Under the pieces are notes generated by a model. That model was not told the origin of the DNA. It did no database searches and saw only the letters and a program-made list of their open reading frames with translations. From Zychaea mexicana (taxonomy: Eukaryota > Mucoromycota > Mucoromycetes > Mucorales > Lichtheimiaceae), in NCBI RefSeq assembly GCF_025766255.1, contig NW_026516769.1, positions 98,555 through 162,554 on the forward strand: a stretch of DNA of 64,000 nt. The letters are read 5' to 3'. Shown one piece after another: positions 31,153 to 62,353 of the stretch. Every line of letters begins with the position of its first letter. Position 1 is the stretch's first letter. Position numbers and translations under genes: made by a program.

Positions 31153-32199
31153 AGCTATTGTCGACTACGAAAGGTGCGCAGCATATCAAGGTTAAGCAGC
31201 TATTGCCCGTTACAGGTACTACGGTAAAAAGCGTAGCGGATGATAACATCATGACTGGGTCAAACCCTCGACCTTCTCTTTCTTCGTAGCTCTCCCCTCC
31301 CATGCCTTCCGAATACTACAAGCTCAGCACTAATCACTATAATGTTTCTTACATCCTTGACTTGATTATGTAGCTGGATCTTGGTGAGTCGGGCACGTCA
31401 ATGTTTTTCTAGAAAAGTCTTTCCCAAGTGTCGTTATCATAGATATCATCTCTATCATCACCGCCCTCCCGTTATGCGATAACATCATATTATGCTCTGT
31501 AGTTTCTTTCGCTATTTACACTTTCAAATCAGACGAAGCTACAGTCTGTGTGAGTGTAAATTATAGCCATTAAATTTTTGTGCAGCTATGTTTGCATCAA
31601 TTCATCGATCATGAACCATGCTCTGTGGCTCCTAATGGTGTAGCTAAATATCCTCCTTGTGGAACCACATGTGTTTACAGTGTTTTGCGTTTAAGAATAT
31701 AAAATTTGGGGGGACTAAATCCACTTTTTGAATCCGTCAACGAAATTTTCCTGTCATCAGTGAAATTTTTGGAAGAGTAATATAATTTTTGTTGGATCAG
31801 TGTAATTTTCCATTATCTAGTATACAGTGTTTCCGAAATTACTTAACGCACATTTCGAAATCGGTGTCGCACCTGAAAAAAACAGATGTCGGATTTCCAA
31901 AAAGCAGATGTCGGGATTTTTTTGATCAACTTGTCGCGCTTTTGGTTTTGACTTGTCGCCAAATCAATTGTCAGGGTATCGTACCACCTACTACGTATAT
32001 ACTTTAAAAGTGGTAATCGTCCAGGTGCACGTAACAACCAACCTACATACAAAATCAAATAAAAAGAAAAATAGATGCACAAGATGACATAAAATGGATA
32101 CAATGGGTATACGTATTTTATTTATTCATAAAGTAAGATGGAGAGATATAAATACAATAAATGAGGAGACAGAAGGGGGTACTAGTTTAAAGGGGAGTG
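31153..32199 (-). repeat. 1-kb repeat block S1 (inverted copy of 54733-55783)
   Basis: Near-identical in reverse orientation to 54733-55783. It contains, at 31827-31990, a stretch starting CAGTGTTTCCGAAATTACTT that is also found near 50822, the end of another Tc1/IS630-type family. The block cuts off the 3' end of the neighbouring R1 gene copy at 32200. Open frames such as 31028-31303 and 31843-32103 are conserved only because the DNA is duplicated. Confidence 0.8.
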
Positions 32200-33803
32200 A
32201 GCCAAAGGAGAATTAATAGCTGATGGGATTACAGATCTTTTTTTGCCTTTGTGGCCAACAGGGGTGATTTCATCGTCTTTCAAAGCTGCGACCGTCTCCA
32301 ATAAGTAACCACACATGCAGTAAACCAACTCCATGATGGGTACCAATTGCTTTACACATACATCAGGATCAGTGGGAAATTCTACTCTTTCCGAGTATGT
32401 CAATCGACATGCAGATCCTTTTGGACTATCCAGGATAATAACACTAATATGAAATCCTATAAATAGATCTTTGTCAATAAAATATAGATGTATACATCAT
32501 CACCCCCCCCCAGCAATATCTTACCAGATATAATAAACGCAGCTATTTTGGCTTTGTGAATACACGAAGGAAATGCGTTTGTTAAAGAAACAAAAAAGTC
32601 CTTTAACATCTTTGGAGCTTTAAGTCCACTTTCGCAGAGTTCTTTTGTTCCGGTTTCCCCATCATCTGCTAAACGAACTTCTGAGAATGCGATTTCATGA
32701 TTGAGATATACACATTTCAAATCTAGTTGGCAGCCTGATATTTGTTTAGTGACAGCGTCTGTTGTAGCTAAAGCTCGGTTCTAGTTATGTCTCACTGTTG
32801 ATGCCAAAGATTATTTCTTTCCACTAAGCATAGGAACCACAGTTAGATATTATGTTACATATGTTTACAAATGATGTAATAATAACTTACGAGCTTGCTC
32901 GGATTTTTGTAGATGAAAAGCATTTGGCAATAAAAAACCAAATGCGATATTCGACATCGTCTTCAGTAAAGTCGTCAGCAAGGATGTTGTAGTTGTATAA
33001 ATTTACTGTTTCTTGGATCGTATTCCATGCCCAAAACAAGTCTGGCTGTTTTGCTGGATAAAAATGTTTTTCCATGAGAGCATCATCCAATGCATCGACT
33101 GTTTTCTATTTTTTTTTCAGAAAAGATAGGTTTAACCTTCAGTTATCTGTATGTATACGACATTGTAAATATTGTACTGATCTTACCTTTCCTTTGAATG
33201 AGTATAAGTACTCATTGAGCTCTTTTGGTAATGGCTCATCGAATTCAATTGCTTTAAAATCATGGATATCATTTAAATCCTCTTCAGTGAATTTGTTATC
33301 GTAAATGGGATCATTCGGGTTGATAATCATCGAATGAACCGGGCTACATAGCAACAACAAATTAGCATAATTAAACATGAACACAACTTGGTATATTATA
33401 AACTTATTGTTCAAAAGGTGTTTTCATGGCAGTATCTTGCATAACTTCTTCAAGAATTGCTCCACTTGGTAACCGCTAAACATTACCAGCCTTAATGGCA
33501 TCATCATACTTCTTTTTCACCTCTGCAAATGCTTCTTCTGTCATAATCCTTCCTGAGTGATTGCTCTTGCTATTGGAAGTAGTAGTGGTAGCCTGTTTTT
33601 TCGCTTCTTCAATTTTACTTTTGATTCTGGGCCAGTCAATTTCCTGCATGCATAATAGAAATCATCAGTATATTACAGTAAAGATATAGCAATAGAAAAA
33701 AATTACTTACTTCTTCTTTATTTACTTCAATTTTTTCTTGCCTTACTACTTTGAAAAAGCTTTTTGACCATATACGACATAAGTTTTGGCGCAAATCAGT
33801 CAT
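32200..33803 (-). pseudogene. Family R1 gene, copy 1 (left arm of E1), truncated and broken
   Basis: Same gene as copies 2 (43843 +) and 3 (60669-62353 -). Exons read from ATG 33803: MTDLRQNLCRIWSKSFFKVV, then IDWPRIKSKIEEAKK and IMTEEAFAEVKKKYDDAI, then a block with MIINPNDPIYDNKFTEEDL, then DALMEKHFYPAKQPDLFWAW, then the core DLKCVYLNHEIAFSEVR with GLKAPKMLKDFF and DSPKGSACRLTYSERVEF. Damage: TAA just after the GKK-type turn near 32806-32808 (copy 3 has AAA there), and the Ser/Thr-rich C-terminus is lost where block S1 joins at 32200. Function unknown; see copy 3. Confidence 0.7.
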
Positions 33804-33896: not shown

Positions 33897-34041
33897 GGCG
33901 CATATGCATTACCAACTGTTTCTATATAAAAACAATTAGTAGTAAGTTTTTTATTGGTAATAAAAATTTAAATTAATTATAAAATTGAATTTTTATTTTC
34001 TAAAAAAATAAATTTCTCAATAGATTTAATCAATTTTTATA

Positions 34042-34572
34042 ATGGTTGCACTTAATAGTTTTCTTCCAATTAACCATATACAATTACGTATTAATCTATG
34101 TAATGAAATAGGTACTTTCATGGAAACTGAATTTGACCATTTCTTAGAAAAAGAAAAAAAAATAGTTGAAAGAATACAAAAAAAGGTAAATAGAAAAATA
34201 AAGGATTTATTTTCTTCTAATCATTTCTTATATCTATCTATAAATAATAATTTTTGTACACATATATTTAGAAAGGGTAAACATGAAGGAGAATTTTGTG
34301 CCCATAAAATTAGAACAAATTTAAATGGTAAAAAACCAGATTATCTTTGTTGCAGACATAGTAAAAATCATATTCCAAAAAAAAGAAAAAAAAATGTGAA
34401 AAATGAGAAAATAGTTGAAAAAGAAATTGAGAAAATAGTTGAAAAAGAAATTGAGAAAATAGTTGAAAAAGAAATTGAGAAAAAAAAAGAAAAAAAAAAG
34501 AAAAAAAGAAAACCCATAAAAATTACAATAGGAAATCCTTTTTTCTTATGCTTTAACAATATTCTTCCTTAA
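34042..34572 (+). CDS. Small Cys/His-rich, Lys-rich accessory protein of the transposon, 176 aa
   Basis: Intact single frame. The centre holds a probable zinc-binding motif: CTHIFRKGKHEGEFC (Cys72, His74, Cys86) followed about 17 residues later by DYLCCRHSKNH (Cys103, Cys104, His106, His110), then the basic IPKKRKK. The C-terminal part has three tandem copies of EKIVEKEI and a Lys-rich tail (DNA-binding or nuclear localisation). The same motif, with nearly identical wording around it (TNLNGK.PDYLCC.HSK.HIPKK), occurs in the 183-aa proteins at 46649 and 48038. No function is known to me; DNA binding at the element ends is a reasonable guess, by analogy with the second protein of Harbinger elements. 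Confidence 0.7.
   Translation: MVALNSFLPINHIQLRINLCNEIGTFMETEFDHFLEKEKKIVERIQKKVNRKIKDLFSSNHFLYLSINNNFCTHIFRKGKHEGEFCAHKIRTNLNGKKPDYLCCRHSKNHIPKKRKKNVKNEKIVEKEIEKIVEKEIEKIVEKEIEKKKEKKKKKRKPIKITIGNPFFLCFNNILP
34405..34480 (+). repeat. Three tandem 24-bp repeats inside the accessory gene
   Basis: Unit GAAAAAGAAATTGAGAAAAT plus AGTT, repeated three times in frame; it encodes a charged EKIVEKEI helix repeat. Confidence 0.8.
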
Positions 34573-34610
34573 ATTTTTTATATAAATTCTATTATATATA
34601 TTATGTTCTT

Positions 34611-36131
34611 TTATAATATGCCTAGACTATGCTTTTCAATATATGCTTTCAATAAATCTTTTTGATTAAACAGATCAATAGATAACCAACTATTATCATT
34701 ATTACTATATCCAACCCATTTTACCTCAAATAAATATATATTATTTTCTTTTTTATGTCTAATAATACTTTCTATTTCATATGATGTAGTTGACCGCTGT
34801 TTTCCTTTTATATTTCTTCTTCTTTTTCTAGTACGTTCATTAAAATTAGGTATATCATTATTACTTTCATTATTTTCTGAATTATCAGATTCAGTATTAT
34901 CTATAGCCATTATATTATCTGATATAGTCATATTTAATAAATTATTTTGTATCTGCACCATTCTATCTAGTTTATTTTTATTTTGTTCATTATTGCTAAC
35001 AACTATATCCACTAGTTTTTTCTCAGTAGGAAAATCAAAGTTATTACTATGCCATAATTTATGATGTGGCAAGATAGGAACATTAAATAATTCAACAAAT
35101 TTATTTATATTTTTTAATAAACATGCTACACGAAATTGAAGATTGTAAAACTTAACATTATCCATCTTTACAATTGATTTATTATTGTTGAAACGATAAA
35201 ATTTATTACCAATTTCAGAAAATTGATTTTCAATTTTAGTTCTAAAGCTTCCAAATGTATTATTAAACTGTTCTTCAGTAATTGTTAAATTTTCATTTAT
35301 GTTTTTACGAATTGGATAAACAAAATTATCATTACTAAATTCATACCCTTTTTCATTAGAAAGTTCAGTAAATTGTGTTATAAATAGAGTATATCCACCA
35401 TCAACTGCTAAAGTATCATTTTGATTCATCTTATTATAAAGTTTCATATTTAAAAACATGCTACCATCAGAACTATCTGCACAGAATTCACTTTTAGATA
35501 TAAAAAGTATCATATCATTAATATCAGCAGCAAATTGAGTACGTAAACCATTTTTCTTAAATTTGTATGAATATAAACGTGACCTATCTAAATCTGTATC
35601 TGTATAATTAATTCGTGAGTCATGACCATCTAAAATAAGTGTTACATGTTTAAATAAATCAGGATTGTATTTTCTAGCAGATAAGATACGCAACTTTATA
35701 TTTGAAAACATATTTATTAATGAATCATTTACTATTTTATTAATTCGTTTATAATTTTCTTCATCCATCCAAAATTTTTTATAAAAAGTATGAAATGTAC
35801 TTTGAGGTAAATACTTTTCAATACCATTCCCAGAAATTCCTGAAACTAAATGATATAATAAAAATAATCCTTTTTCAATTTCAAAGTATGGTGCTGGATA
35901 TTCTTTATTTGTATACAATACAACTAAAAAGAAAAAAATAGCAGTATAACCTAATTTCTTTAATAATATATCTTTAATTTTTTCAATAAATTTAATATGC
36001 TTAATTTCTGTTCTATGTTTAAATCTATTATATATAATAGGCCAATTCAAATCAAGAAAAGTCCAATAATTTGCAATAATAAATTTTACTTCATCTGTAA
36101 TTAATGGTGTATAATCTATTTGATCCATCAT
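34611..36131 (-). CDS. DDE_4/HARBI-like transposase with C-terminal chromodomain, 506 aa
   Basis: Intact frame, ATG 36131. The catalytic core shows ILDGHDS (Asp168), AVDGGY (Asp244) and, after a helix, SFRTKIENQFSEIGNKFYRF with Glu301; this D-D-E spacing and the R..IEN.F block are typical of DDE_4/HARBI transposases. Residues 420-445 are a basic linker (RTRKRRRNIKGKQR). Residues 451-503 form a chromodomain: YEIESIIRHK, then FEVKWVGYSNNDNSWLSIDL, with the aromatic cage Tyr/Trp/Trp positions present. A chromodomain could guide insertion to methylated-histone chromatin, as in chromoviruses. It overlaps no other gene and converges on the accessory gene. The first 150 residues are helical, probably DNA-binding, without a clear HTH. 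Confidence 0.85.
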   Translation of the reverse strand: MMDQIDYTPLITDEVKFIIANYWTFLDLNWPIIYNRFKHRTEIKHIKFIEKIKDILLKKLGYTAIFFFLVVLYTNKEYPAPYFEIEKGLFLLYHLVSGISGNGIEKYLPQSTFHTFYKKFWMDEENYKRINKIVNDSLINMFSNIKLRILSARKYNPDLFKHVTLILDGHDSRINYTDTDLDRSRLYSYKFKKNGLRTQFAADINDMILFISKSEFCADSSDGSMFLNMKLYNKMNQNDTLAVDGGYTLFITQFTELSNEKGYEFSNDNFVYPIRKNINENLTITEEQFNNTFGSFRTKIENQFSEIGNKFYRFNNNKSIVKMDNVKFYNLQFRVACLLKNINKFVELFNVPILPHHKLWHSNNFDFPTEKKLVDIVVSNNEQNKNKLDRMVQIQNNLLNMTISDNIMAIDNTESDNSENNESNNDIPNFNERTRKRRRNIKGKQRSTTSYEIESIIRHKKENNIYLFEVKWVGYSNNDNSWLSIDLFNQKDLLKAYIEKHSLGIL

Positions 36132-36228
36132 TTTATTTATAATATAAAATTCAATTTATATAAAAAATTAATTACTTTTTATAAAAACAATTATATCTTT
36201 ATAGCTATATAAGTATTGCAGTACCTAC

Positions 36229-43842: not shown

Positions 43843-45527
43843 ATGACTGATTTGTGCCAAGACTTATGTCGTATATGGTCAAAAAGCTTTTTCAAAGTAG
43901 TAAGGCAAGAAAAAATTGAAGTAAATAAAGAAGAAGTAAGTAATTTTTTTCTGTTGCTATATCTTTACTGTAATATACTGATGATTTCTATTATGCACGC
44001 AGGAAATTGACTGGCCCAGAATCAAAAGTAAAACTCAAGAAGTGAAAAAACAGGCTACCACTACTACTTCCAATAGCAAGAGCAATCACTCAGGAAGGAT
44101 TATGACAGAAGAAGCATTTGCAGAGGTGAAAAAGAAGTATGATGATGCCATCAAGGCTGGTAATGTTTGGCGGTTACCAAGTGGAGCAATTCTTGAAGAA
44201 GTTATACAAGATACTGCCATGAAAACACCTTTTGAACAATAAGTTTATAATATACCAAGTTGTGTTCATGTTTAATTATGCTAATTTGTTGTTGCTATGT
44301 AGCCCGGTTCATTCGATGATTATCAACCCAAATGATCCCATTTACGATAACAAATTCACTGAAGAGGATTTAAAGGATATCCATGATTTTAAAGCAATTG
44401 AATTCGATGAGCCATTACCAAAATAGCTCAATGAGTACTTATACTCATTCAAAGGAAAGGTAAGATCAGTACAATATTTACAATGTCGTATACATACAGA
44501 TAACTGAAGGTTAAACCTATCTTTTTTAAAAAAAAATTAGAAAACGGTCGATGCATTGGATGATGCTCTCATGGAAAAACATTTTTATCCAGCAAAACAG
44601 CCAGACTTATTTTGGGCATGGAATACGATCCAAGAAACAGTAAATTTATACAACTACAACATCCTTGCTGACAACTTTACTTAAGACGATATCGAATATC
44701 GCATTTGGTTTTTTATTGCCAAATGCTTTTTATCTACAAAAATCCGAGCAAGCTCGTAAGTTATTATTACATCATTTGTAAACATATGTAACATAATATC
44801 TAACTGTGGTTCCTATGCTTAGTGGAAAGAAATAATCTTTGGCATCAACAGTGAGACATAACTAGAACCGAGCTTTAGCTACAACAGACGCCGTCACTAA
44901 ACAAATATCAGGCTGCCAACTAGATTTGAAATGTATATATCTCAATCATGAAATCGCATTCTCAGAAGTTCGTTTAGCAGACGATGGGGAAACCGGAACA
45001 AAAGAACTCTGCGAAAGTGGACTTAAAGCTCCAAAGATGTTAAAGGACTTTTTTGTTTCTTTAACAAACGCATTTCCTTCGTGTATTCACAAAGCCAAAA
45101 TAGCTGCGTTTATTATATCTGGTAAGATATTGCTGGGGGGGGGTGATGATGTATACATCTATATTTTATTGACAAAGATCTATTTATAGGATTTCATATT
45201 AGTGTTATTATCCTGGATAGTCCAAAAGGATCTGCATGTCGATTGACATACTCGGAAAGAGTAGAATTTCCCACTGATCCTGATGTATGTGTAAAGCAAT
45301 TGGTACCCATCATGGAGTTGGTTTACTGCATGTGTGGTTACTTATTGGAGACGGTCGCAGCTTTGAAAGACGATGAAATCACCCCTGTTGGCCACAAAGG
45401 CAAAAAAAGATCTGTAATCCCATCAGCTATTAATTCTCCTTTGGCTCCTAGTTCCAAACCATCTTCATCAAGTACTAACACCACAACTAGCAACACATCT
45501 AGTAAAAAATTAAAACTAAGTAACTAG
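43843..45527 (+). pseudogene. Family R1 gene, copy 2 (right arm of E1)
   Basis: Full-length layout, ATG at 43843 (MTDLCQDLCRIWSKSFFKV) to the stop after KKLKLSN at 45527. Lesions relative to copy 3: PLPK followed by TAG at 44424-44426, TAA inside the exon with NYNILADNFT (44682-44684), and the TAA in GKK-TAA near 44832 shared with copy 1. Sharing of that stop between the two E1 arms, but not with E2, suggests the arms are homogenised within one element. Confidence 0.75.
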
Positions 45528-45830
45528 ATATTACCCACCAACGTACCGAACAATTTTCCTTTACCAAATTTTTACCCTTACTGATTCCCTGTATTCTCAA
45601 CCATATCAAAGGTCTCTAGATATTATCATATAGAAATAACCCTCAAAACAGCACAAAACTTATATATCTTTAAATTCATTTTTATTATAAATACCAATAT
45701 AAAGAAAAGCAGTAAATCATAAAAAATACAGTTTGTAACAAAACAAATCTGGCAACTTTGTTAACGTTTTCTATAAGAGCATCGTTCAGTTTATCAGCTG
45801 CATTATATATTGAAAAGGTAAGTCCCATCT

Positions 45831-46241
45831 TTATTTCTTTGTATGCGAATGGTATTGTAAATGTTGCACTGATATTGCCTTTCCTTTAAATGGGTACAAA
45901 TACTCATGAAGCTCTTTTGGTAATGGCTCATCGAATTCAATTGCTTTTAAATCATGGATATCATTTAAATCTTCTGTCAATTTGTTATTATAAATGGAAT
46001 CTTTCGGGTTGATGATCATTGAATGAACCGGGCTACATAGCAACAACAAATTAGCATCATCATCATCATGCACAATAAAATAATGAAAAAAGCAACGTAA
46101 TATATTCTTTAACTTACTTTCCAAGGCACTAATCATGACATTCCTTTTAAATCGAACCAAACAACTTGATATATATATCCAACATGAGACCTGTGTAGGG
46201 GCCCACCAAGAAAAGTAAATAAATAGACATCCATAAAACAA
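45831..46241 (-). pseudogene. Partial second R1-like gene in the outer arm (E1)
   Basis: The frame has the exon-3 motif of R1 (PVHSMIINPKDSIYNNK, then KAIEFDEPLPKELHEYLY), in the opposite orientation to the complete R1 copy next to it. It starts with an unrelated MFYGCLFIYFSW leader and ends HSHTKK. The piece beyond, around 45750-45800, recalls the following exon (LNDALIENV). This is a diverged, partial paralogue, also present in E2 at 59955-60365. Confidence 0.55.
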
Positions 46242-46505
46242 AAGATCGTTGATTGTTTCGCCTTGTCAGCACCTCATCAAATAGAAAGAAAGCCTTGATA
46301 ATGTCAATAATCATAGTAATATAAATGGTTCTCTTGATACGAATTTATTCACTAGCTTGACACTAATTGAAAAGCAAAAGAAAGAAAAGTCAGAATCCAA
46401 AGTGTGTATGGCTATACGATACATATTCGTTATATGGGCTGGCTACGCACCTTGTTGCTTACTATTAAAAAAAGCGCCCATAATTAATGAACTACGTGCC
46501 CCTAC

Positions 46506-46508
46506 ACA
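46506..46508. repeat. Target duplication ACA, left of tandem insertion
   Basis: E2 shows the empty site (complement of 59690-59702: CCCCTACACATTCGTG). In E1 the insertion sits between CCCCTACACA and ACATTCGTG, so ACA is duplicated. Confidence 0.75.
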
Positions 46509-46648
46509 GGAGACTGGTTGTTATGTTAAAAATTATATAAAAAGTAGCAACTTAAAATAATTTTGTCAACTTAAAAATAAAATAAAAATTGAATTTTTAT
46601 TTTTATAAAAAAAGACGAATTCCCAAATATTAAACAATCTTTTTTATA

Positions 46649-47200
46649 ATGACTATTCTTAACAAAGATATACTTATATGCAAAAATTCTATGCAAATTT
46701 CTATTAAAAATATTATGAATCAAATTATGGATTATTATTTTGATAATGAATTTTTAGTAAATACTATAAATAATAAAAAAAAGGTATTTAAATATGCTAT
46801 TAAAGAAAAAATGAATGAAGTTAATTCACTAAACTTTTGGTGTAATAATACTAGTGAAACTATATGCACACATATATATAAACGGGGTAGAAAAGAAGGA
46901 CATATGTGCCATAAAAAAATACAAACAAATCTTAATGGAAAAAGTCCAGATTACTTATGTTGTACTCATTCCAAAAAACATATTCCAAAAAAACGATATA
47001 TTAGGAATAAAATTATAGAAAAAGATAATTTAGGAAATCAAAAACAAAAAAAAATTGACCCCTTTAATAATAAAAAAATAAATATAAAAAAAGAATATAA
47101 AAATAAACAAAATATAAAAAAGAGAAAAATTAAAAAAATCTATATATGTAATAGAGGAAATATTAATTTAGGGAAAATAATTACTAGCCTCATAAATTAA
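46649..47200 (+). CDS. Cys/His-rich AT-rich-element protein, 183 aa, copy 1
   Basis: Intact frame. The N-terminal 60 residues are helical. The zinc-like motif is CTHIYKRGRKEGHMC (Cys73, His75, Cys87), then DYLCCTHSKKH (Cys104, Cys105, His107, His111) and IPKKRYIRN. The C-terminal 70 residues are very Lys/Asn/Ile-rich. It is related over the motif to the 176-aa protein at 34042, otherwise diverged. The codon choice is strongly A/T. A T-rich leader with TTTTTTATA lies just before the ATG. Function unknown; a DNA- or RNA-binding role is suggested by the motif and the basic tail. It is the only gene of the unit, so presumably it matters for the element. Confidence 0.7.
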   Translation: MTILNKDILICKNSMQISIKNIMNQIMDYYFDNEFLVNTINNKKKVFKYAIKEKMNEVNSLNFWCNNTSETICTHIYKRGRKEGHMCHKKIQTNLNGKSPDYLCCTHSKKHIPKKRYIRNKIIEKDNLGNQKQKKIDPFNNKKINIKKEYKNKQNIKKRKIKKIYICNRGNINLGKIITSLIN

Positions 47201-47217
47201 ATAAATCTATTATCTAT

Positions 47218-47846
47218 GATAATAAACGGGGGCTATTATCTTTATAATTAATATTTCATTTATAAAATGCCCAGAGTATGCCATTATTTATTCTTGTCAG
47301 GAAGGCGATACAAATCCTTTGTATTATGCCTTCCTTATATTATAATAATTAATATATTTAGAAAAAAATATTCTTTTTTTCTTTTCCGTCTGGAAATATT
47401 TTCAAAATTTTAATTTTGAAATATATTTAGATAAATAAAATGTATCATTTTATTTAGGCAAGGGGGGTTCCATTACCCCTTGCTATATAAGGGTGTTATA
47501 CACCCGTCTGGTTAATATTAAAAATATTCTATTTTTAATAGGCGAAGCAAAGCTTCTTAATAATTAATATTCAATATTAATTAGGTGAAACTTTGTTTCA
47601 CTAAATTAAAATAAATTTTAATTTATTTTATCATAATCAAAGATTATGACCAGACGGGTCTTTGACCCTAGAAGAAATGGTAATGGAACCCCATTTCTTC
47701 AATAAATAGTAAAATGATACATTTTACTTTTTATTTATATATATTTGAAAAATTAAAATTTTTCTAAATATATATGACCAGACGGAAAACAAGAAGAAAG
47801 AATTGTTTTAATTCTTTTAGGGTGATAAAATTATTATAATTTTATC
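47218..47846. repeat. Hairpin array of tandem copy 1
   Basis: At least twelve consecutive inverted repeats, examples: 47299-47335 (AGGAAGGC stem with inner ATACAAA), 47458-47483 (GCAAGGGG), 47491-47505 (GGGTGT-TAT-ACACCC), 47544-47556 (GAAGC-AAA-GCTTC), 47585-47601 (GTGAAAC-TTT-GTTTCAC), 47632-47648 (CATAATC-AAA-GATTATG), 47656-47668 (GGGTC-TTT-GACCC), 47671-47700 (GAAGAAATGG), 47708-47728 (AGTAAAATG-ATA), 47798-47817 and 47824-47846. Several share 3-nt AAA or TTT loops. Larger nested pairs join CCGTCTGG 47386 with CCAGACGG 47778, and CCCGTCTGG 47503 with CCAGACGGG 47650. Confidence 0.85.
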
Positions 47847-47882
47847 ATCTGTACTGAGTATTATATTTATCAACCAGACGCC

Positions 47883-47897
47883 TGATTAGATAGATCA
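47883..47897. repeat. 15-bp spacer between the tandem copies
   Basis: TGATTAGATAGATCA, itself bounded by TGAT/ATCA. It is absent from the empty site in E2, so it arose with the tandem arrangement or belongs to the element. Confidence 0.6.
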
Positions 47898-48037
47898 GGA
47901 GACTGGTTGTTATGTTAAAAATTATATAAAAAGTAGCAACTTAAAATAATTTTGTCAACTTAAAAATAAAATAAAAATTGAATTTTTATTTTTATAAAAA
48001 AAGACGAATTCCCAAATATTAAACAATCTTTTTTATA

Positions 48038-48589
48038 ATGACTATTCTTAACAAAGATATACTTATATGCAAAAATTCTATGCAAATTTCTATTAAAAAT
48101 ATTATGAATCAAATTATGGATTATTATTTTGATAATGAATTTTTAGTAAATACTATAAATAATAAAAAAAAGGTATTTAAATATGCTATTAAAGAAAAAA
48201 TGAATGAAGTTAATTCACTAAACTTTTGGTGTAATAATACTAGTGAAACTATATGCACACATATATATAAACGGGGTAGAAAAGAAGGACATATGTGCCA
48301 TAAAAAAATACAAACAAATCTTAATGGAAAAAGTCCAGATTACTTATGTTGTACTCATTCCAAAAAACATATTCCAAAAAAACGATATATTAGGAATAAA
48401 ATTATAGAAAAAGATAATTTAGGAAATCAAAAACAAAAAAAAATTGACCCCTTTAATAATAAAAAAATAAATATAAAAAAAGAATATAAAAATAAACAAA
48501 ATATAAAAAAGAGAAAAATTAAAAAAATCTATATATGTAATAGAGGAAATATTAATTTAGGGAAAATAATTACTAGCCTCATAAATTAA
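48038..48589 (+). CDS. Cys/His-rich AT-rich-element protein, 183 aa, copy 2
   Basis: Protein identical to that at 46649-47200. See that entry for the motif and comparison with the 176-aa protein of the chromodomain transposon. Confidence 0.7.
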   Translation: MTILNKDILICKNSMQISIKNIMNQIMDYYFDNEFLVNTINNKKKVFKYAIKEKMNEVNSLNFWCNNTSETICTHIYKRGRKEGHMCHKKIQTNLNGKSPDYLCCTHSKKHIPKKRYIRNKIIEKDNLGNQKQKKIDPFNNKKINIKKEYKNKQNIKKRKIKKIYICNRGNINLGKIITSLIN

Positions 48590-48606
48590 ATAAATCTATT
48601 ATCTAT

Positions 48607-49235
48607 GATAATAAACGGGGGCTATTATCTTTATAATTAATATTTCATTTATAAAATGCCCAGAGTATGCCATTATTTATTCTTGTCAGGAAGGCGATAC
48701 AAATCCTTTGTATTATGCCTTCCTTATATTATAATAATTAATATATTTAGAAAAAAATATTCTTTTTTTCTTTTCCGTCTGGAAATATTTTCAAAATTTT
48801 AATTTTGAAATATATTTAGATAAATAAAATGTATCATTTTATTTAGGCAAGGGGGGTTCCATTACCCCTTGCTATATAAGGGTGTTATACACCCGTCTGG
48901 TTAATATTAAAAATATTCTATTTTTAATAGGCGAAGCAAAGCTTCTTAATAATTAATATTCAATATTAATTAGGTGAAACTTTGTTTCACTAAATTAAAA
49001 TAAATTTTAATTTATTTTATCATAATCAAAGATTATGACCAGACGGGTCTTTGACCCTAGAAGAAATGGTAATGGAACCCCATTTCTTCAATAAATAGTA
49101 AAATGATACATTTTACTTTTTATTTATATATATTTGAAAAATTAAAATTTTTCTAAATATATATGACCAGACGGAAAACAAGAAGAAAGAATTGTTTTAA
49201 TTCTTTTAGGGTGATAAAATTATTATAATTTTATC
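48607..49235. repeat. Hairpin array of tandem copy 2
   Basis: Same series of stem-loops as at 47218-47846, shifted by 1389 bp. Confidence 0.85.
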
Positions 49236-49271
49236 ATCTGTACTGAGTATTATATTTATCAACCAGACGCC

Positions 49272-49455
49272 ACATTCGTGTCCAAACCCATAACCACTGA
49301 AGTCTCGCTTGCGCTTTTCAAATGACCTTAACCTATAGACTAAGTAGGTGTAATCTCGTCAAAGAAAAAAAAAGCTTTTAGTTCACTTGTTTCACTAAAT
49401 CAAGTATTGATGATGAGCAACTGGGCAATATAAAAAAAGATGGGAAGAAGCATGT
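49272..49455. repeat. Right terminus of E1
   Basis: Inverted copy of 59507-59690. The shared sequence ends at GGAAGAAGCATGT (49455); on the other strand ACATGCTTCTTCC. This is taken as the outer end of the giant element. The flanks differ beyond this point. Confidence 0.65.
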
Positions 49456-59506: not shown

Positions 59507-59954
59507 ACATGCTTCTTCCTATCTTTTTTTATATTGCCCAGTTGCTCATCATCAATACTTGATTTAGTGAAACAAGTGAACTAAAAGCTTTTTTTTTCTT
59601 TGACGAGATTACACCTACTTAGTCTATAGGTTAAGGTCATTTGAAAAGCGCAAGCGAGACTTCAGTGGTTATGGGTTTGGACACGAATGTGTAGGGGCAC
59701 GTAGTTCATTAATTATGGGCGCTTTTTTTAATAGTAAGCAACAAGGTGCGTAGCCAGCCCATATAACGAATATGTATTGTATAGCCATACACACTTTGGA
59801 TTCTGACTTTTCTTTCTTTTGCTCTTCAATTAGTGTCAAGCTAGTGAATAAATTCGTATCAAGAGAACCATTTATATTACTATGATTATTGACATTATCA
59901 AGGCTTTCTTTCTATTTGATGAGGTGCTGACAAGGCGAAACAATCAACGATCTT

Positions 59955-60365
59955 TTGTTTTATGGATGTCTATTTATTTACTTTTCTTGGTGCGCCCCTA
60001 CACAGGTCTCATGTTGGATATATATATCAAGTTGTTTGGTTCGATTTAAAAGGAATGTCATGATTAGTGCCTTGGAAAATAAGTTAAAGAATATATTACG
60101 TTGCTTTTTTCATTATTTTATTGTGCATGATGATGATGATGCTAATTTGTTGTTGCTATGTAGCCCGGTTCATTCAATGATCATCAACCCGAAAGATTCC
60201 ATTTATAATAACAAATTGACAGAAGATTTAAATGATATCCGTGATTTAAAAGCAATTGAATTCGATGAGCCATTACCAAAAGAGCTTCATGAGTATTTGT
60301 ACCCATTTGAAGGAAAGGCAATATCAGTGCAACATTTACAATACCATTCGCATACAAAGAAATAA
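59955..60365 (+). pseudogene. Partial second R1-like gene in the outer arm (E2)
   Basis: Counterpart of 45831-46241, with a few substitutions (SWCAPTQ against SWWAPTQ, ENKL against ESKL). Same motif KAIEFDEPLPKELHEYLY. The following exon-like piece near 60397-60480 (DKLNDALIENVNKVARF) lacks a clear continuation. Confidence 0.5.
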
Positions 60366-60668
60366 AGATGGGACTTACCTTTTCAATATATAATGCAGCT
60401 GATAAACTGAACGATGCTCTTATAGAAAACGTTAACAAAGTTGCCAGATTTGTTTTGTTACAAACTGTATTTTTTATGATTTACTGCTTTTCTTTATATT
60501 GGTATTTATAATAAAAATGAATTTAAAGATATATAAGTTTTGTGCTGTTTTGAGGGTTATTTCTATATGATAATATCTAGAGACCTTTGATATGGTTGAG
60601 AATACAGGGAATCAGTATGGGTAAAAATTTGGTAAAGGAAAATTGTTCGGTACGTTGGTGGGTAATAT

Positions 60669-62353
60669 CTAGTTACTTAGTTTTAATTTTTTACTAGATG
60701 TGTTGCTAGTTGTGGTGTTAGTACTTGATGAAGATGGTTTGGAACTAGGAGCCAAAGGAGAATTAATAGCTGATGGGATTACAGATCTTTTTTTGCCTTT
60801 GTGGCCAACAGGGGTGATTTCATCGTCTTTCAAAGCTGCGACCGTCTCCAATAAGTAACCACACATGCAGTAAACCAACTCCATGATGGGTACCAATTGC
60901 TTTACACATACATCAGGATCAGTGGGAAATTCTACTCTTTCTGAGTATGTCAATCGACATGCAGATCCTTTTGGACTATCCAGGATAATAACACTAATAT
61001 GAAATCCTATAAATAGATCTTTGTCAATAAAATATAGATGTATACATCATCACCCCCCCCCAGCAATATCTTACCAGATATAATAAACGCAGCTGTTTTG
61101 GCTTTGCGAATACACGAAGGAAATGCGTTTGTTAAAGAAACAAAAAAGTCCTTTAACATCTTTGGAGCTTTAAGTCCACTTTCGCAGAGTTCTTTTGTTC
61201 CGGTTTCCCCATCGTCTGCTAAGCCAACTTCCGAGAATGCGATTTCATGATTGAGATATACACATTTCAAATCTAGTTGGCAGCCTGATATTTGTTTAGC
61301 GACAGCGTCTGTTGTAGCTAAAGCTCGGTTTTGGTTATGTCTCACTGTTGATGCCAAAGATTTTTTCTTTCCACTAAACATAGGAACCACAGTTAGATAT
61401 TATGTTACATATGTTTACAAATGATGTAATAATAACTTACGAGCTTGCTCGGATTTTTGTAGATGAAAAGCATTTGGCAATAAAAAACCAAATGCGATAT
61501 TCGACATCGTCTTCAGTAAAGTCGTCAGCAAGGATGTTGTAGTTGTATAAATTTACTGTTTCTTGGATCGTATTCCATGCCCAAAACAAGTCTGGCTGTT
61601 TTGCTGGATAAAAATGTTTTTCCATGAGAGCATCATCCAATGCATCGACTGTTTTCTATTTTTTTTTCAGAAAAGATAGGTTTAACCTTCAGTTATCTGT
61701 ATGTATACGACATTGTAAATATTGTACTGATCTTACCTTTCCTTTGAATGAGTATAAGTACTCATTGAGCTCTTTTGGTAATGGCTCATCGAATTCAATT
61801 GCTTTAAAATCATGGATATCATTTAAATCCTCTTCAGTGAATTTGTTATCGTAAATGGGATCATTCGGGTTGATAATCATTGAATGAACCGGGCTACATA
61901 GCAACAACAAATTAGCATAATTAAACATGAACACAACTTGGTATATTATAAACTTATTGTTCAAAAGGTGTTTTCATGGCAATATCTTGCATAAATTCTT
62001 CAAGAATTGCTCCACTTGGTAACCGCCAAACATTACCAGCCTTGATGGCATCATCATACTTCTTTTTCACCTCTGCAAATGCTTCTTCTGTCATAATCCT
62101 TCCTGAGTGATTGCTCTTGCTATTGGAAGTAGTAGTGGTAGCCTGTTTTTTCACTTCTTGAGTTTTACTTTTGATTCTGGGCCAGTCAATTTCCTGCGTG
62201 CATAATAGAAATCATCAGTATATTACAGTAAAGATATAGCAACAGAAAAAAATTACTTACTTCTTCTTTATTTACTTCAATTTTTTCTTGCCTTACTACT
62301 TTGAAAAAGCTTTTTGACCATATACGACATAAGTCTTGGCACAAATCAGTCAT
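60669..62353 (-). CDS. Family R1 gene, copy 3: best-preserved copy, function unknown
   Basis: Multi-exon gene carried in the arm of E2. From ATG 62353: exon 1 to KIEVNKEE (about 62262); exon 2 from EIDWPRIKSKTQEVKK to PFEQ; exon 3 with PVHSMIINPNDPIYDNK and EFDEPLPKELNEYLYSFKGK; exon 4 VDALDDALMEKHFYPAKQ to STKIRAS; exon 5 GKKKSLASTVRHNQNRAL, DLKCVYLNHEIAFSEVGLAD, GLKAPKMLKDFFVSL to AAFIISG; exon 6 FHISVIILDSPKGSACRL to a Ser/Thr-rich tail and KKLKLSN. All later exons are open here, unlike copies 1 and 2; the exon 2-3 junction after FEQ (TAA follows in every copy) is unresolved. The D...E-x pattern in exon 5 faintly resembles a PD-(D/E)XK nuclease. It resembles expanded Mucorales families I know only as hypothetical proteins. 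Confidence 0.55.

Follow-up and report, generated by a model that had tools for sequence, protein, structure and literature searches.

Head-to-tail twin units of a non-autonomous DNA transposon inserted as one block in the fungus Zychaea mexicana, with a pattern that suggests a circular or head-to-tail form

In a 64,000-nucleotide stretch of the Zychaea mexicana genome (hereafter the window; NCBI RefSeq assembly GCF_025766255.1, contig NW_026516769.1, positions 98,555 to 162,554 of the forward strand), two copies of a transposon unit lie head to tail at window positions 46509–49271. Both units (unit 1, 46509–47882; unit 2, 47898–49271; + strand) are 1374 bp long, 100% identical over their full length, and separated by a 15-bp spacer (47883–47897, TGATTAGATAGATCA). 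Their terminal repeats have the 12-bp length given in an initial annotation, but are imperfect rather than exact (GGAGACTGGTTG vs. GGCGTCTGGTTG, 10/12 matching); in unit 1 the left repeat (GGAGACTGGTTG) occupies 46509–46520 and the right repeat (CAACCAGACGCC) 47871–47882, both on the + strand. The unit is without a transposase. Its only ATG-started open reading frame (ORF) of at least 110 amino acids (aa) is an accessory-protein gene of 183 aa (46649–47200 in unit 1 and 48038–48589 in unit 2, + strand), and each unit contains a hairpin tree (47355–47815 and 48744–49204, + strand; the two identical). The host genome searched was the 50.3-Mb, 305-contig assembly, in which the window locus is labelled C9.

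The dimer is bordered by ...CCCCTACACA on the left of unit 1 and by ACATTCG on the right of unit 2. An inverted sister copy of the flanking sequence, located at 59507–61695 in the window, lacks the block: the left flank (44501–46508) aligns with 61695–59688 at 98.6%, and the right flank (49272–49455) aligns with 59690–59507 at 99.5%. At the empty site (59688–59690), 3 bp belong to both flank matches, so the dimer block duplicated ACA (left copy 46506–46508, right copy 49272–49274); the initial annotation had read ACA correctly, but had placed the empty site at 59690–59702. The units individually lack target duplications (ACA vs. TGA for unit 1, TCA vs. ACA for unit 2), so the dimer entered as one block, and the empty site holds neither the spacer nor the units. 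Two identical units were inserted together in one event with a 3-bp duplication, as had been proposed. The 2-kb inverted repeat pair itself (44501–46508 and 59688–61695, 98.6% identical), one copy of which flanks the dimer, is partly present also at 32199–33145.

The accessory protein contains a Cys/His motif and has no Pfam match over cut-off. At least 150 genome matches were obtained, the unit's own copies included (150 of the 259 candidates were scored), together with 20 protein-database matches, one of them named from Circinella umbellata. Alignment of 16 proteins (2 from the window and 14 from the database) revealed 18 invariant positions, including C73, C87, C104, and H107. The sole gene is a relative of the accessory protein of a chromodomain transposon, as first annotated; the proteins of the unit and of the window transposon are 34% identical in the multiple alignment and 42% identical over 162 residues in the genome search. 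A search of PDB folds with the predicted model (weak, with a mean predicted local distance difference test score of 65) returned nothing at E ≤ 0.001, IMG/VR contained no relatives, and a likeness of the Cys motif to giant-virus proteins was not supported. Comparison of the C9 gene with the copy at C8 gave a non-synonymous divergence (dN) of 0.0135, a synonymous divergence (dS) of 0.052, and a dN/dS of approximately 0.26 (Fisher p 0.03, synonymous vs. non-synonymous). The coding parts of the two copies differ at 11/552 sites and the non-coding parts at 71/790, with 61 of the 71 falling within the hairpin tree; outside the tree, the non-coding DNA differs at 10/364 sites and is approximately as conserved as the gene. 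Protein-level selection is indicated by this one pair, not proven.

RNA folding of the hairpin tree at 47355–47815 (approximately 460 nt) gave −160.7 kcal/mol (z −17.3) and DNA folding gave −106.5 kcal/mol (z −18.8), with 0/100 shuffles as good in each case; a separate shuffling scheme (60 shuffles) gave a z of −12.7. Ten copies of the module at ten places all showed z values between −7.6 and −21.4, vs. −7.3 to +1.9 for five control stretches, the −7.3 belonging to a body of the second group of elements described below, which is itself structured. The closing stem of the unit 1 tree, a long-range pairing of CCGTCTGG (47386–47393) with CCAGACGG (47778–47785) on the + strand, 384 nt apart, becomes CCTTCTGG/CCAGAAGG at locus C248, a paired change. 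RNAalifold found 11/33 predicted pairs changed on both sides, a rough count from a rough ten-way alignment with badly aligned cassettes included, and a covariation term near zero (−0.07); covariation support for the predicted tree is modest. Whole hairpins are deleted or replaced from copy to copy, and between C9 and C8 no other part has changed as fast as the tree (86% identity). The module also occurs inside elements with unrelated ends, including four second-group loci, and is in this sense a separable structured module. No Rfam family exceeded its gathering score in the units or in the stretches L022, L012, and L018; five sub-threshold matches (E 0.45–0.87) were taken as chance.

The ends of the unit were compared with those of transposase-bearing elements. 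The left end matched the element at C162:1718–4875 in 90/113 columns (z 11.6) and the right end in 57/77 columns (z 8.9), each with 0/500 shuffles as good; the target duplication of the C162 element is ATA. Among 12 end comparisons with other subfamilies (C303, C18, and the window's own transposon at 33897–36228), 10 had z below 2, and the two weak exceptions both involved the left end of the unit (C303, z 3.3, 1/500 shuffles; window element, z 3.7, 0/500). These two weak matches perhaps reflect distant kinship or AT-rich composition. The four comparisons with the window element gave z 3.7, 1.9, 1.9, and 0.7. The left end of the unit type is shared with C66, and the right end with both C66 and C24. 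The transposases of C162 and C66 were recognised by alignment to the window transposase, and that of C24, from the same clade, has DDE_Tnp_4 and Chromo matches over cut-offs; the DDE_Tnp_4 of the window element also exceeds the Pfam cut-off. C303, C18, and the window transposon were rejected as parents, their ends matching weakly or not at all, despite the C18 accessory protein being among the closest to that of the unit (55%). From these comparisons, the unit is a non-autonomous derivative of a DDE_Tnp_4 and chromodomain transposon of the C162/C66/C24 subfamily.

The initial annotation had linked the unit to the chromodomain transposon 12 kb away. That kinship holds in kind, and the partner was corrected to C162/C66/C24 because the C162 ends match at z 11.6 and 8.9, those of the window element match weakly, and the accessory proteins are only 34% identical. 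Its suggestion of a non-autonomous partner keeping the accessory gene instead of the transposase is supported by the C162 end matches; its alternative of a different selfish element altogether is not. The C24 transposase (L074:912–2414) also matches ERCC4 over cut-off (E 1.1e-6, residues 112–201, overlapping DDE_Tnp_4), perhaps by chance or at the level of fold. The C162, C66, and C24 elements (L072, L073, and L074) have their flanking sequence in common, as though it had been duplicated with the elements or were one repeat hit by insertions.

At least 99 unit-matching stretches were found, all in this genome (40 of 90 candidate places were scored). A lack of other copies in related genomes would have counted against the initial annotation; within this same genome, copies are present. 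We searched the whole genome with a pattern consisting of the right end, 2–17 free bases, and the left end, with no mismatch allowed and no spacer letters included. This spacer-blind pattern occurred at five places, vs. zero for the reversed control, and four of the five were dimers (C9, C248, C63, and C108), every one with a gap of 15 bp. The fifth place (C251:413941–413961) has right-end-like and left-end-like sequences 3 bp apart, by chance or as another kind of junction. End patterns alone gave right-to-left joints in the fetched loci at C9, C248, C63, and C108, each of 15 bp, and the other end pairs within 400 bp were end-like matches, not joints. A pattern with the spacer letters included found the same four dimers, but cannot test spacer conservation. 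The four spacers agree pairwise at 12–14 of 15 positions. The spacer is semi-palindromic and with its flanks forms an imperfect palindrome, CCTGA...TCAGG inside CAACCAG...CTGGTTG; the C9 junction folds as an imperfect hairpin (−19.1 kcal/mol as RNA).

All six two-ended monomers read show 3-bp duplications (C8 ATG, C303 AAA, C68 ACT, C294 GAT, C16 GTT, and C13 ATT), with no spacer outside them. The C248 dimer is bracketed by one outer duplication, ATT. C63 lacks both outer ends through truncation, and at C108 an outer end was found on the right only, so outer duplications were read at C9 and C248 among the four dimers. The C9 units are 100% identical, and the nearest other copy found is 92% identical. 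Spacer-like sequences were found at eight places within one mismatch, vs. one in the control, and three of the eight are dimer junctions. At three of the five non-dimer places (C3, C190, and C304; the other two are C168 and C295:430090), no pair of unit ends was found, the nearest thing to a unit end being a left-end-like 12-mer with two mismatches approximately 190 bp from the C3 site.

Two further arrangements were rejected as elements or dimers. An inverted pair at C295 proved to belong to a large inverted duplication: C295:159500–173500 (L017, L027) is near-perfect, with arms of approximately 4.2 kb in the stretch fetched, 94.7% alike, each with a truncated unit end inside it, and a third copy lies near 171.8 kb. 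Tandem transposase copies at C16 are 70% alike and look like neighbours. At C303:51379–53893 (L058, L010), 16 bp separate a monomer of the family from the end of an autonomous chromodomain transposon. That transposon belongs to another subfamily and has an ATA duplication, and the arrangement possibly indicates a preference for insertion beside relatives.

Two of the other dimers are heterodimers: over 639 patchy columns the bodies at C248 agree at 77.8%, and over 284 columns those at C108 agree at 72.2%. The two fragments at C63 do not overlap one another; the left is 90.9% identical to the C248 left body over 558 columns, and the right is 92.0% identical to the C248 right body over 224 columns. 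C108 is a different pairing, with a left body like the C248 right body (89.2%) and a right body like C294 (87.1%) and C68 (84.8%).

A second group of elements has a body–spacer–body structure, and the figures given here are for nine tandem and two solo loci read, further genome matches being present. At C68, C112, C32, and C264, bodies of 448–449 bp with GAAGATT...AATCTTC ends flank spacers of 339–341 bp that hold the hairpin tree, and C68 is a three-body array (body–spacer–body–spacer–body). C66, C273, C11, C241, and C19 have related or similar bodies with other spacers of approximately 130–720 bp, in which no hairpin tree was present as far as seen. Bodies measured 448–466 bp in seven loci. 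Each of the nine tandem loci has one outer 3-bp duplication (C241 and C19 by eye), and the solo bodies at C33 and C261 each have their own. Bodies inside one locus are 98.4–100% identical. In the two closest sets, nine differences mark loci (six substitutions among C68, C112, C32, and C264, and three between C273 and C11); all nine occur on all bodies of their own locus, and none sorts the left bodies of different loci together. On this pattern, which is like that of identical long terminal repeats (LTRs), each second-group insertion looks as though it was copied from one body.

Second-group bodies of approximately 70% identity share a GC-rich core (e.g., CGTCCAAGTATTCC and TGCTCACTACC; L022:372–520, L066:340–490, L067:500–660, L065:300–440, and L068:395–520), a possible promoter or structured element. 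The C241 spacer (L065:705–1373) contains an open ORF of 222 aa that matched neither Pfam (E ≤ 0.1) nor any other place in the genome (E ≤ 0.001), possibly a captured gene or a third element gene.

In the reading that we favour, and consider somewhat probable, the unit is a trans-mobilised non-autonomous element that moves via a head-to-tail form, and dimers are also inherited or recombined. A transposase supplied from elsewhere would act on any left end and any downstream right end. Its substrate would be a circle of one body and one spacer, or a concatemer arising from such a circle, and insertion would yield a spacerless monomer, a one-spacer dimer, or a longer array; existing dimers would also move as composites and swap bodies by recombination. 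A head-to-tail substrate would give identical units at each locus and a spacer between units only. The initial annotation had raised a circular or rolling intermediate, and the finding of the spacer only between units, together with the single-template pattern of the second group, lends that idea indirect support.

Several observations weigh against this reading. No circle or concatemer was observed. The heterodimers at C248 and C108, with the fit of C63, show that dimers persist or units recombine, so single-copy circles would be insufficient without recombination, and on these two counts the idea of a circular or rolling intermediate did not hold up fully. Very frequent gene conversion inside each locus could be another route to identical bodies, and each of three further differences is confined to a single body (a gap in body 2 of C68 and two changes in body 1 of C273). 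The single-template test is possible only in the second group, C9 being the sole homodimer of the window family, and the spacer-blind pattern would miss changed ends or gaps outside 2–17 bp. With regard to the parent, we infer mobilisation in trans by a C162-type transposase from end similarity alone; C24 has an open transposase frame but yielded no left end, those at C162 and C66 contain stops, and no parent both complete and intact was seen.

The heterodimers are the chief support for an alternative that we regard as plausible, if short of probable, in which one ancestral dimer with the 15-bp spacer was moved by its outermost ends and its bodies were converted or recombined, with no circle involved. 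C248 and C108 pair different bodies yet carry the same spacer, the C63 fragments fit the C248 pair (though both loci might instead belong to a single stretch that was duplicated), a lone outer duplication (ATT) brackets the C248 dimer, and an inherited spacer would stay conserved without any function. Such descent would nevertheless demand very frequent conversion at each locus to explain the identical C9 and second-group bodies, and the three-body array at C68 also stands against it.

We consider it rather unlikely, as a stronger form of the favoured reading, that there is a hidden extrachromosomal phase in which a circle of body and spacer is copied head to tail, the chromosomal copies being integration products. 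The 15-bp junction, perhaps with the hairpin tree, would then be a site of replication, cleavage, or resolution. The KolobokP report notes that a semi-palindrome of 15 bp is recognised by the homing nuclease I-PpoI (PMC9587614), and a role of the 15-bp spacer as a nuclease site would fit for that reason. If this were true, a DNA transposon would amplify by copying off the chromosome, not by cut-and-paste alone.

LTR retrotransposons and their miniature (TRIM) forms are expected to have a primer-binding site beside the left repeat and a target duplication of 4–6 bp. It is very improbable that the second group consists of TRIM-like elements with LTRs as their direct repeats, or that the dimer, by analogy, is such an element. 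Solo and paired bodies, identical or nearly identical repeats per locus, and a tandem form would all suit such elements, and TRIM tandems are in print (PMC9587614). However, the nine tandem and two solo loci show 3-bp duplications, every body ends in inverted repeats, no consistent primer-binding site was found by inspection after the left body, the 15-bp spacer of the window family is too short for one, and the ends of the unit are DNA-transposon ends. That a single unit was doubled by the assembler can hardly be credited: the 100% identity of the units would allow it, but the C248 and C108 junctions join diverged bodies with the same spacer, and the second group has a three-body array at C68. 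Two independent side-by-side insertions, for which the repetition of the family in the genome and the nested or neighbouring members of the wider family, as at C13 and C303, could be cited, are already contradicted by the empty site without spacer and units and by the same 15-bp spacer at four loci; individual target duplications are also missing from both units.

It is not settled by what route DNA transposons of the cut-and-paste type increase in number. Tandem blocks with one duplication, a spacer between units, and locus-wide differences point to copying before integration, in parallel with the inference drawn from the identical LTRs of retrotransposons, and our results suggest that such elements can move via a circular or head-to-tail form. 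The fungal loci described here offer concrete places in which to seek circles.

Elsewhere in the window, a host TPR protein has relatives that include Phascolomyces articulosus and Parasitella parasitica, the two names among 53 matches; like Circinella umbellata, both belong to the Mucorales, and the genome is Mucorales-like.

Among known systems, the family shares with PIF/Harbinger and Tourist-like elements a DDE_Tnp_4 transposase, a separate accessory gene, and a 3-bp target duplication. The Pfam family DDE_Tnp_4 is linked to PIF/Harbinger, and a Myb/SANT second protein is typical of that superfamily. The 3-bp duplication is seen at the C9 block and at 6/6 two-ended monomers, both unit ends are shared with the transposase-bearing C162 element, and the relatives carry DDE_Tnp_4. 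The unit was filed as PIF/Harbinger-like and no further because a Myb-type second protein was looked for and not found, the accessory protein having a Cys/His motif and no recognised domain; this family differs also in the chromodomain at the transposase end, in the insertion of tandem blocks, and in the hairpin tree. Transposase-less elements of the PIF/Harbinger and Tourist-like kind are moved in trans, according to two reports (PMC2836001, PMC2213677).

Bacterial IS26-type translocatable units, as described in PMC9587614, resemble the proposed form in their circles of one repeat and one spacer and in their pseudo-composite products; they differ from the present family, which has a conserved spacer and a 3-bp duplication around the entire block. 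The tandem CMITEs of corals are likewise short inverted-repeat elements in tandem with similar intervening sequences, but they have TTAA duplications and a length of approximately 100 bp, and their authors favour replication slippage (PMC2872659).

KolobokP (Kojima and Bao 2022, PMC9587614) is the known design closest to the present one. It is a group of composite-like Kolobok transposons, reported from seven animal phyla, in which a Kolobok transposase is combined with a His-Me nuclease. In the notation of that report, direct repeats with short inverted repeats of their own occur as solo repeats and as multimers, (LTDR-INT)n-LTDR, with outer target duplications; the commoner type has repeats of approximately 450 bp, close to the 448–466 bp of our seven second-group loci, and its authors discuss unequal crossover and a circular one-repeat intermediate. 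The second group shows this layout, and the window family shows it as repeat–15 bp–repeat together with monomers. The two systems differ in that the window repeat is 1374 bp long and holds a gene, the 15-bp spacer is non-coding, and the ends of the unit tie it to a fungal DDE_Tnp_4 chromodomain transposon. No Kolobok transposase lies in the INT position of the window family, whose spacer is 15 bp and whose relative carries DDE_Tnp_4 and Chromo; none was found in the second-group spacers read (approximately 130–720 bp), and no search for a distant autonomous parent by transposase was made. The His-Me finger nuclease family PF05551 had no match in the genome, with control genomes equally without one. 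Membership in KolobokP is not claimed. Among the titles and abstract openings listed from the open-access collection searched, no fungal example of the layout came up. A KolobokP layout in a fungus, apparently with a transposase from a different family, suggests more than one origin of this design. A within-locus single-template test is not among the results reported for KolobokP in the part of PMC9587614 available to us; the spacer-blind junction result and the single-template pattern within loci are new here.

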